This document shows positions 38,982 through 41,482 of a stretch of 41,482 nt of DNA, piece by piece. Under the pieces are notes generated by a model that saw nothing but the letters and a program-made list of their open reading frames with translations, made no database searches and was not told the DNA's origin. This DNA comes from Candidatus Kerfeldbacteria bacterium (GTDB lineage Bacteria > Patescibacteriota > Patescibacteriia > SBBC01): contig JACQPY010000001.1 of assembly GCA_016207275.1 (NCBI GenBank), positions 1-41,482 of the forward strand, written 5' to 3'. The first letter of the stretch is position 1, and each line of letters starts with the position of its first letter. The position numbers were made by a program, and so were the translations under genes.

Positions 38982-39521
38982 ATGCCGAACCTGGTTAGGC
39001 CCAGTGAGTTTGCCGTTATCGACGTGGAAACGACTGGCTTTAAGCCAGAAGACGGCCACGAGATTGTTGAGGTGGCGGCCCAGAAAATCCGCGGCCAGTC
39101 AGTGATCGGGCAGTATCAGGCCTTGGTCCAGGCCAGCCGCCCGCTCGATCCCGGCAGCGTGCTGTTCAACGGCATCGGCCCCGAGCTGTTGGCGGCTGAA
39201 GGCAAAGCGGGGCACGAAGTTTTCCCGGTTCTCCACGCCTTCCTCGGTTCAGCGGTCTTGATCGGCCACAACATTCCGTTCGATCTCGGATTTTTGAACA
39301 AGCATTTTACCCTTCACGCACTGCCGCCGTTGACCAACAGCGTCCTCGACACGCTGCTGCTGTCGCGGAAGTACCTGATTCTCCCCTCGTACTCGTTGGA
39401 ATCAGTTGCCCGCTACTTGCAAGTACCGCAACCCACGGCGCATCGAGCCATGGCCGACGTGGAGACAACCCGGCAAGTGTTTTTGAAACTGGTGGAGCGG
39501 GCGCTGAAAGTGGGTAGATAA
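38982..39521 (+). CDS. DnaQ-like 3'-5' exonuclease (DEDD)
   Basis: FAVIDVETTGFKPEDGHEIVEVAA...LIGHNIPFDLGFLN...HRAMADVETTRQVFLKL. Confidence 0.92.
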   Translation: MPNLVRPSEFAVIDVETTGFKPEDGHEIVEVAAQKIRGQSVIGQYQALVQASRPLDPGSVLFNGIGPELLAAEGKAGHEVFPVLHAFLGSAVLIGHNIPFDLGFLNKHFTLHALPPLTNSVLDTLLLSRKYLILPSYSLESVARYLQVPQPTAHRAMADVETTRQVFLKLVERALKVGR

Positions 39522-39606
39522 CGTTTGACTATTGACATTTGACGTTTGACTGTAGGACACTGTGGTCGTGCACGGTCAATAGTCAAATGTCAAACGTTAA
39601 ATGTTC
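39519..39606 (+). repeat. intergenic inverted repeat of TTTGACN heptads (site C)
   Basis: TAACGTTTGAC (39519-39529) / GTCAAACGTTA (39589-39599), with further TTTGAC/ATTGAC units inside. Confidence 0.75.
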
Positions 39607-39615
39607 TGCACACGC

Positions 39616-39690
39616 GGGCCCGTAGCTCAATGGTAGAGCATCTGCCTTTTAAGCAGAGGGTTGATGGTTCGAATCCATCCGGGCTCACCA
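39616..39690 (+). tRNA. tRNA-Lys (anticodon TTT), CCA encoded
   Basis: GGGCCCG...CGGGCTC acceptor, TCTGC-CTTTTAA-GCAGA anticodon arm, GATGG-TTCGAAT-CCATC T arm, ACCA. Confidence 0.97.
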
Positions 39691-41270
39691 AAACTCACTT
39701 TGGCGGAAATCGTTGCGCCGCGCGCATCGCGCGGCGCGGCGGTTCCGCGTTTCAAAACAAAATCCGCCTTTGTTTTTGCGGTAAAATCCCAGAGGTCGCT
39801 CCATCCAATTGAAAGCGTTTTATCCTTGAGAGAGGGGTTAGAGCCGATTTTGCGGAAAAAATCGCGCCACGCAGCGTGATTTTCTGTTTGTGCGACTTTT
39901 TCCGCTTCTCTCAAGGACAAAACGAAACTCCGCAAGGGTTCGAGCCGATTCTTTCCCAGCTGCCCAAAATCTCCGTTTCGTTCTTCAAGTTTGGCTTTCT
40001 CGCGCATCAATGCGTCTTTGCGTTCGAGGTATATCTCGCGCTCAATGTCGCCATCCAGGTACAGTGAAACAAGGCGATCTATTTTCTCTTTCGTTTCTGC
40101 TAACTTGGTTTTGAGATTATTGGCAACTATTCCTCTCGAAGAAATTGACTCTTGTTCCCATGTTTCAATCTGTTTTTCCATTACCTCAATTTCTTCAAGA
40201 GGAAGCGACACTGTTTGAAGTAGTAATTTTAATTGAGCGGCGAGTGCGGGGGCTTGAATGTACGGCTGACCGCACTTTCCGCTTTTCTTGGAACAACGAT
40301 AGTAGGTGTATTTCGTGCCCCAGCGATTCGTTGCATACTGTGCCGTGATCATGCTCCCGCACTCGCCGCAGCGCGCAAACTGGGTAAAGGGGAAATCGTG
40401 CTTTTCCTTTCGTTTGCGCGGTCGTTGCTTCGATTTGAGGACTTTTTGCACGGCCTCAAACAGTGTCGGGGAAAGAATCGGCTCAAAGTTTCCGTCGTGC
40501 CATTCTCCGTGATGATTGATGAATCCTAAATACGCCCTATTCGTCAACATTTTGACGACGGAAACTTTTGCAAGTGGCGTTCGGTTCATCTGTACAACAC
40601 CGTGGTCCGCTAAAAACTGTGCCAGCGATACGAGCGTGTGCGTTCCCTTGGCGTATTCTTTGAACGCTCGATGAATGACCTTGCTGTATACCGGATGCGG
40701 GTCAATGTTCTTGGTTTTGGGATTGTTCACATAGCCAAGGGGCGCGCGGGTCAGCCATTCGCCACGGCGGAGTTTTTGACGGATGCCGCGTTTGACATTT
40801 TCCACCAAATTGTCGGAAAAGTATTTGGACTGGCCGAACGCCACTTGCAACATGAATTTCCCTTGCGGAGTTGGCTCAAACCAAAATTGCGGGAAGCGCA
40901 AAGAAGCAATCGCGCCGGTGTCTACGAGGTAGATAACTCTACCGCCATCAACGCTATTGCGGGCGAGACGATCCGGGTGCCACGCCAAAATGCCTAGCGG
41001 CTTTCGACTCCTTTCAATCATCGTGAGCATTTTCCCGAATTCGTCTCGCCCGGGCTTCTTTGCGCTCTTTGCTTCGGTAAATTCCTTGACGATTTCAATG
41101 CGTTCTCTCTTTGCAAATTCGCGAAGCTCAAACAATTGAGCTTCGATGCTCATAACCTGCTTATCGTCCTCCTCGGTGCTTTTCCGAGCATAGAGAACGC
41201 AGGGCAATTTTGGTTTGAGCTCTTTCAATGAAAGATCTGGTGCGACCTCTGGGATTTTACCTTTCTTCAT
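39627..41270 (-). CDS. large serine recombinase (resolvase + recombinase + zinc ribbon + coiled coil)
   Basis: VLYARKSTEEDDKQVMSIEAQL, GILAWHPDRLARNSVDGG, CGECGSMITAQY, C-terminal coiled coil; the last residues are antisense to tRNA-Lys. Confidence 0.93.
   Translation of the reverse strand: MKKGKIPEVAPDLSLKELKPKLPCVLYARKSTEEDDKQVMSIEAQLFELREFAKRERIEIVKEFTEAKSAKKPGRDEFGKMLTMIERSRKPLGILAWHPDRLARNSVDGGRVIYLVDTGAIASLRFPQFWFEPTPQGKFMLQVAFGQSKYFSDNLVENVKRGIRQKLRRGEWLTRAPLGYVNNPKTKNIDPHPVYSKVIHRAFKEYAKGTHTLVSLAQFLADHGVVQMNRTPLAKVSVVKMLTNRAYLGFINHHGEWHDGNFEPILSPTLFEAVQKVLKSKQRPRKRKEKHDFPFTQFARCGECGSMITAQYATNRWGTKYTYYRCSKKSGKCGQPYIQAPALAAQLKLLLQTVSLPLEEIEVMEKQIETWEQESISSRGIVANNLKTKLAETKEKIDRLVSLYLDGDIEREIYLERKDALMREKAKLEERNGDFGQLGKNRLEPLRSFVLSLREAEKVAQTENHAAWRDFFRKIGSNPSLKDKTLSIGWSDLWDFTAKTKADFVLKRGTAAPRDARGATISAKVSFGEPGWIRTINPLLKRQMLYH
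39685..39780 (+). repeat. left arm of 96-bp inverted repeat
   Basis: Reverse complement of 41297-41392 with one mismatch; contains hairpin GCGCCGCGCG-CAT-CGCGCGGCGC (39715-39737). Confidence 0.97.
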
Positions 41271-41296
41271 AGCGTTGATGGTTAGAAAAAGCTAAA

Positions 41297-41392
41297 CGCA
41301 AAAACAAGGGCGGATTTTGTTTTGAAACGCGGAACCGCCGCGCCGCGCGATGCGCGCGGCGCAACGATTTCCGCCAAAGTGAGTTTTGGTGA
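41297..41392 (-). repeat. right arm of 96-bp inverted repeat
   Basis: 95/96 identity with the reverse complement of 39685-39780. Confidence 0.97.
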
Positions 41393-41482
41393 AGTAATTA
41401 TACATTTCGCGCGAATCTTTTTTGAGCGTCAATTTTGAGCTTCTGACGGGCGGGCGGAAGGGGGTTCTAGGGGGAATTCCGC

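Follow-up and report, generated by a model that had tools for sequence, protein, structure and literature searches.

What kind of unit is delimited when a large serine recombinase gene lies within a long, almost perfect inverted repeat, one arm of which touches a tRNA gene while the other lies near a contig end? The window, that is, the whole stretch of DNA analysed, is the entire contig C14 (41,482 bp) of a 952-kb genome assembled in 21 contigs. Its two arms, at 39685–39780 on the forward strand and 41297–41392 on the reverse strand, are reverse complements over 96 nt with 95 of the 96 positions in agreement (99%), as the first-pass annotation had described them. Past a 35-nt indel the inverted repeat resumes, with 23 of 24 positions (96%) paired between 39780–39803, which continues the left arm, and 41238–41261 on the reverse strand; with this inner piece included, each arm measures about 120 bp in total. 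The left arm (A) starts with the last six bases of a tRNA-Lys(UUU) gene with an encoded CCA (39616–39690, forward strand; ARAGORN), and 90 bp separate the end of the right, far arm (A′) from the contig end. No second copy of either arm or of the last 90 bp was found in the rest of the 952-kb genome.

Two further observations concern tRNA-Lys genes. Just upstream of the gene lies a palindrome of TTTGACTATTGACATTTGACGTTTGAC units (39520–39605), pieces of which, about 30 nt long, also occur in contigs C2, C6 and C16 of the genome and in the relatives G003 and G004; it is a member of a dispersed intergenic repeat family. In G001, from the window's genus, two inserts seem to interrupt a tRNA-Lys(TTT)-like gene (L121:40–140): one forms a hairpin and lies in the anticodon loop, the other is 40 nt long and lies in the T-loop (GGTTCG...GAATCC). 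They may be introns of a patescibacterial tRNA.

The open reading frame between the arms encodes 547 amino acids on the reverse strand, from 41270 to 39627. It runs antisense into tRNA-Lys(UUU), its C-terminal end overlapping both the arm and the tRNA. Matches above the Pfam cut-offs to the Resolvase, Recombinase and Zn_ribbon_recom domains (PF00239, PF07508 and PF13408), together with the YxRxS motif in 'LYARKS', identify the product as a large serine recombinase, in agreement with the first reading, and the frame ends in or beside the arms. Profiles of CcrA/B/C and XisF gave weak matches far below their cut-offs. A second, distant large serine recombinase (23–26% identity) is encoded near a contig end of the same genome (L130, G000:C20:401–1594), and no tRNA was seen near it in the 5 kb read.

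Each arm also contains the hairpin with a 10-bp stem and a CAT loop that had been noticed before, at 39715–39737 on the forward strand and 41340–41362 on the reverse strand. The near-arm hairpin stands directly behind the tRNA and the far-arm hairpin in the recombinase leader, with the outer flank of the arm on one side and the recombinase start on the other. Among related arms its place, about 30–45 nt inside the arm, is conserved but its sequence is not; 35 of 61 arms have a perfect stem of at least 8 bp in a comparable position, against 0.3% of shuffled sequences. The hairpin lies outside the expected attP half-site, and it is likely a putative regulatory or terminator-like element.

The search for relatives of the recombinase covered bacterial and archaeal genomes and returned 59, nearly all from Patescibacteria; most of them have near-perfect inverted arms of about 60–147 bp around the same gene. 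No relatives were found in viral contigs (IMG/VR), and the best plasmid and phage matches reached only about 23–26% identity, so that close relatives typical of a prophage or plasmid gene were lacking in these collections. In an even sample drawn from the class (381 genomes), 84 genomes (22%) had the recombinase at E <= 1e-75. The flanks of 80 matches held 81 recombinases, 73 of them testable for an inverted repeat, which was found in 67 copies and missing in six. Within one element the arms are identical at a median of 100%, which points to exchange between them; the 74% identity between elements counts aligned columns only, is close to the random floor and is not meaningful. In a tree of 89 recombinases those bearing the repeat fall into one clade of 73 (SH-aLRT 96). 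The sister large serine recombinases without inverted repeats (L083–L099) also lie beside tRNAs (Asn, Trp, His, Leu), and tRNA targeting may thus predate the paired-attP design set out below. One copy at a tRNA-Met (L039) sits on a 252-kb contig labelled Deltaproteobacteria, and represents either spread beyond Patescibacteria or a mis-binned contig.

The first-pass annotation had proposed looking for the arm next to other tRNAs, and this is where the arms of the relatives were found. The outer end of the arm lies −3 to −6 from the annotated tRNA 3′ end in 26 first-scan loci and −2 to −8 in 44 even-sample copies, and a tRNA 3′ end adjoins 71 of the 81. In tRNA numbering, arm A begins at about position 71. 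Altogether 19 isotypes are used, His alone missing. A single genome can hold up to nine recombinase matches at different tRNAs; the nine of G057 involve tRNAs for Leu, Ala, Gly, Arg and Thr. At least 40 isotype switches, some between close relatives, were counted on the recombinase tree. In the relative G002, of the same family, a recombinase remnant is found at the same tRNA-Lys. L109 targets the tmRNA gene, whose Rfam match shares about 6 bp with the end of the arm. The A–A′ segment of L109 (10144–14520) is 4.4 kb long, with extra sequence beside the recombinase, and the sequence outside its far arm contains GTTTTAG, resembling the variant tmRNA T-loop GTTTAAC.

Beyond the far arm the relatives carry a conserved sequence, X, and not host DNA. 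In complete loci X is met again, inverted, past a cargo segment, and only then does host DNA (G) follow. If the tRNA end is called B, a complete locus reads B.A – recombinase – A′.X′ – cargo – X.G. Of the 36 even-sample copies for which 2.5 kb or more could be read, 23 have the inverted third site and 13 lack a recognisable one; it was also found in L100–L119. Copies without the inverted repeat or the third site are perhaps decayed. If attB is B.G and attP is X.A, the outer two junctions are attL (B.A) and attR (X.G), and the middle junction is therefore an intact, inverted attP. It follows that the circle must be [A–integrase–A′][X′–cargo–X], with two attP sites in inverted orientation. This architecture is well supported. 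The window carries attL and attP only: its contig stops 90 bp into X, leaving just the beginning of the X half-site of attP (41393–41482, reverse strand, aligned with X of the relatives), and no cargo or attR belonging to this copy was found in the bin.

That the locus is an unusual transposable unit had been one of the initial suggestions, and as a mobile unit it stands. A 1.7-kb recombinase element with the 96-bp repeats as its terminal inverted repeats is a different matter. Such a transposon would agree with the compact layout, the single recombinase gene, the long inverted repeats and the many copies per genome, yet X rather than host DNA lies outside the far arm, an inverted X follows 1.3–9 kb away with cargo in between, A–A′ has no direct target repeat and insertion falls at tRNA positions 72–73. 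We consider it very unlikely, and take the arms instead as the A half-sites of attL and of the intact attP. A DDE-type transposon or insertion sequence was also considered and ruled out: the enzyme is a serine recombinase, and the outer ends, A and X, are not repeats of each other.

Comparison of the three junctions narrowed down the point of exchange. In 20 loci the stretch common to all three begins at tRNA position 71 in 18 cases and otherwise at 70 or 72, and it extends at least to position 73; the intersection over all of them is positions 72–73, that is, 2 bp. An overlap of this length is expected of serine recombinases and is known from Tn4451 (PMC5704250). In these 20 relatives attL and attR are thus hybrid sites sharing a 2-bp overlap; the window has no attR. 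Integration at tRNA 72–73 is very likely on this sequence comparison. The attR sequence equals attP through position 76 or further in 11 of the 20 loci and exactly to 76 in nine. Where attR retains the tRNA 3′ end it reads CCA nearly always; G is thus the displaced tRNA end, since such an end would be rare in sequence never attached to a tRNA. An independent check comes from the T-loop motif GTTC. Its distance from the junction is about 16 nt in tRNAs and 21–22 nt in X, and each of the 32 measurable loci shows a shift of 4, 5 or 6 bp. In serine integrases the motif of the zinc domain (ZD) is 5 bp closer to the centre in attB than in attP (PMC3783163), and the assignment of X.A to attP and the tRNA to attB passes this test.

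Applied to the window, half-site B of attB is the T-arm/acceptor end of tRNA-Lys(UUU), with T54 at 39668, 16 nt before the arm start as in most loci, and TTCG at 41412–41415 in X lies 22 nt from the arm. The putative crossover of attL, transferred from the 20 three-junction loci, is the CA of tRNA positions 72–73 (39686–39687, forward strand); that of the intact attP, placed by repeat register at the same bases, would be the CA at 41390–41391 on the reverse strand. In each element the overlap dinucleotide is that of its tRNA: CA at most Leu, Ala, Val and Glu tRNAs, CT or similar at Thr and Cys, and CG or AG at Ser and Gln. This match suggests that the dinucleotide probably sets the target range, while the protein probably reads the T-arm common to tRNAs.

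Traces of integration history were sought in several ways. Nucleotide searches for an empty site, with the joined flanks of L012 in 60 relatives and with four G flanks in the 381 genomes, returned tRNA matches only or nothing, the sequences being too diverged, and no circular contig of the element was found. At the protein level, ribosomal protein L28 adjoins tRNA-Lys/Pro in relatives of G064, which supports the view that L030/L106 inserted between L28 and tRNA-Lys. In L116 (5380–5424) and L051 (690–778) another A-like arm follows X.G, and two elements appear to be stacked at one tRNA. A segment resembling X′–cargo–X stands behind a tRNA-Ser at L108:13812–16457, with a stump of arm A, no recombinase and an intact element adjoining; it is either a decayed or a non-autonomous copy.

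The cargo segments span 1.3–9 kb, and the 13 read in detail, of about 2–8.8 kb, hold one or two operons each. Their genes, which include anti-phage defence systems, comprise a complete type I restriction system (L104), Shedu SduA (L114), an SNF2 helicase with a Cas4-like nuclease (L107), a helicase-nuclease (L116), an AAA_13 ATPase (L119), XRE with ImmA/IrrE (L111), NUDIX/Ham1 (L101), a sodium symporter (L110), HAD hydrolases (L106) and, as read from the sequence, ArsR with a permease (L051). Among the ORFs of the 13 segments, a subset of which was compared with Pfam and PADLOC, no replication, relaxase, mobilisation, conjugation or phage genes were recognised; the mobilisation or conjugation genes of its own that would make the element an IME or ICE are accordingly not seen there. 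Nor was an excisionase/RDF gene recognised in the cargo gene lists.

Since X is repeated around the cargo, short-read assemblies break there, and the window is one such case. Of 58 copies, 31 lie within 700 bp of a contig end on the X side, compared with seven on the tRNA side and with an expectation of 2.6. Those contig ends, and the mere 90 bp left past the right arm of the window, are also what an assembly fold-back would produce, a worry raised at first sight of the locus. We give this explanation practically no weight: the same architecture occurs in dozens of independent assemblies, also deep inside long contigs (L100, L177, L232), the arms have private mismatches, X differs from the left flank, and the repetition of X accounts for the contig ends.

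The orientation of the A–A′ segment bears on the other initial suggestion, a DNA inversion switch, in which the recombinase, like Hin, would flip the segment that contains it and so turn itself or a neighbouring gene on and off. Among the exact even-sample cases 43 recombinases point toward the tRNA (convergent) and one away (tandem), orientation being ambiguous in short-read assemblies when the arms exceed a k-mer. Opposite-orientation copies are L219 and L021, and probably L027, L056 and L065. Both orientations thus exist, the inverted arms are practically identical within an element, and X, outside the invertible segment, has in the window an extended −10-like TGTATAAT (41397–41404) that points at the recombinase; a consensus scan of the window X gave no full sigma-70 promoter. 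A ratio of 43:1 is, however, no mixed equilibrium; the junction of every arm with either a tRNA or X is a signature of integration and not of a switch; and the elements also contain cargo and a third site. When no directionality factor is present, serine integrases are limited to recombination between attB and attP (PMC3783163), which also counts against a switch. We regard switching as an unlikely main function, with flipping possible as a by-product. In L014 and L191 a tRNA 3′ end is found at both arms, as if a spare attP had met another tRNA.

Taken together, we consider it highly probable that the window holds the tRNA-proximal half of an integrative element with a serine integrase, an attB at the tRNA 3′ end, a 2-bp overlap and a pair of inverted attP sites. 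What can be read from the sequences themselves is the architecture, the junctions with tRNAs, the core, the shift of the motif and the cargo; catalysis, a circular intermediate and the use of both attP sites we infer. In the proposed mechanism, the large serine integrase would join attP (X.A) of the circle to an attB made of the tRNA 3′ end (B) and the sequence downstream (G), and crossover at the 2-bp overlap at tRNA 72–73 would yield attL (B.A) and attR (X.G). As A starts with a fresh discriminator and CCA end, the tRNA would stay intact. Two identical inverted attP sites would split the circle in two, with the integrase between A and A′ and the cargo between X′ and X, and integration through one attP would leave the other intact inside the element. 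The integrase would recognise features common to tRNAs (the T-loop GTTC at a fixed distance), so that the isotype would be free provided that the overlap matches. Possible roles of two attP sites are integration by either of them, a spare for rearrangement, and flipping or a 2-micron-like amplification of the circle. How the element travels between cells is a guess, namely uptake of free DNA.

Several known systems share parts of this design. The family of the window resembles Tn4451, the Streptococcus rumA IMEs and SCC/Ccr in combining a Resolvase–Recombinase–Zn ribbon recombinase with passenger genes, and Tn4451 in its 2-bp overlap (PMC5704250). Those elements have one attP and integrate into protein genes or loosely (PMC5704250), and they have no such long inverted repeat, whereas the present family inserts at the 3′ ends of tRNA genes of any isotype and of tmRNA genes, and its two attP sites are inverted. 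Insertion at the tRNA 3′ end with restoration of the gene is shared with tRNA/tmRNA islands (Islander/TIGER), many of which use tyrosine integrases. In such islands the tRNA end is typically present as a direct repeat and each integrase keeps to one tRNA; the enzyme here is a serine integrase with a 2-bp overlap, and close relatives use many isotypes. In the yeast 2-micron plasmid a circle is split by two inverted repeats with recombinase sites, the recombinase gene lying in one segment, which in architecture only is the circle plan proposed here. Flp, however, belongs to the tyrosine recombinases and acts on identical sites, and 2-micron is non-integrating; no replication gene was seen in the present family. 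Hin and Gin likewise have a serine recombinase gene inside inverted sites, but they are small invertases with 26-bp sites and, unlike this family, have no tRNA junctions, third site or cargo. To our knowledge, paired inverted attP sites have no counterpart among known serine-integrase elements or in the literature searched. No published description of the family was found in a search that left most subscription papers and preprints outside.

The family is widespread in Patescibacteria, bacteria with tiny genomes, and apparently undescribed. Little is known of the mobile elements of these bacteria, and this family moves defence and adaptive genes. For those working with metagenome-assembled genomes there is a practical warning, as cargo is systematically missing through the X-side contig ends. 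A serine integrase that takes almost any tRNA 3′ end offers a natural test of attB specificity as half-site plus dinucleotide, and such integrases are possible integration tools. A wider reading, which we hold as evenly balanced between right and wrong, is that the integrase reads universal tRNA features (T-loop and acceptor end) and can enter essentially any tRNA or tmRNA with matching positions 72–73, and that the two inverted attP sites keep the attP of every copy live. If this is true, the repeats of X and A would break assemblies and drop defence cargo out of bins, and a live attP could invert segments, encounter a second tRNA and bring about chromosome rearrangements.
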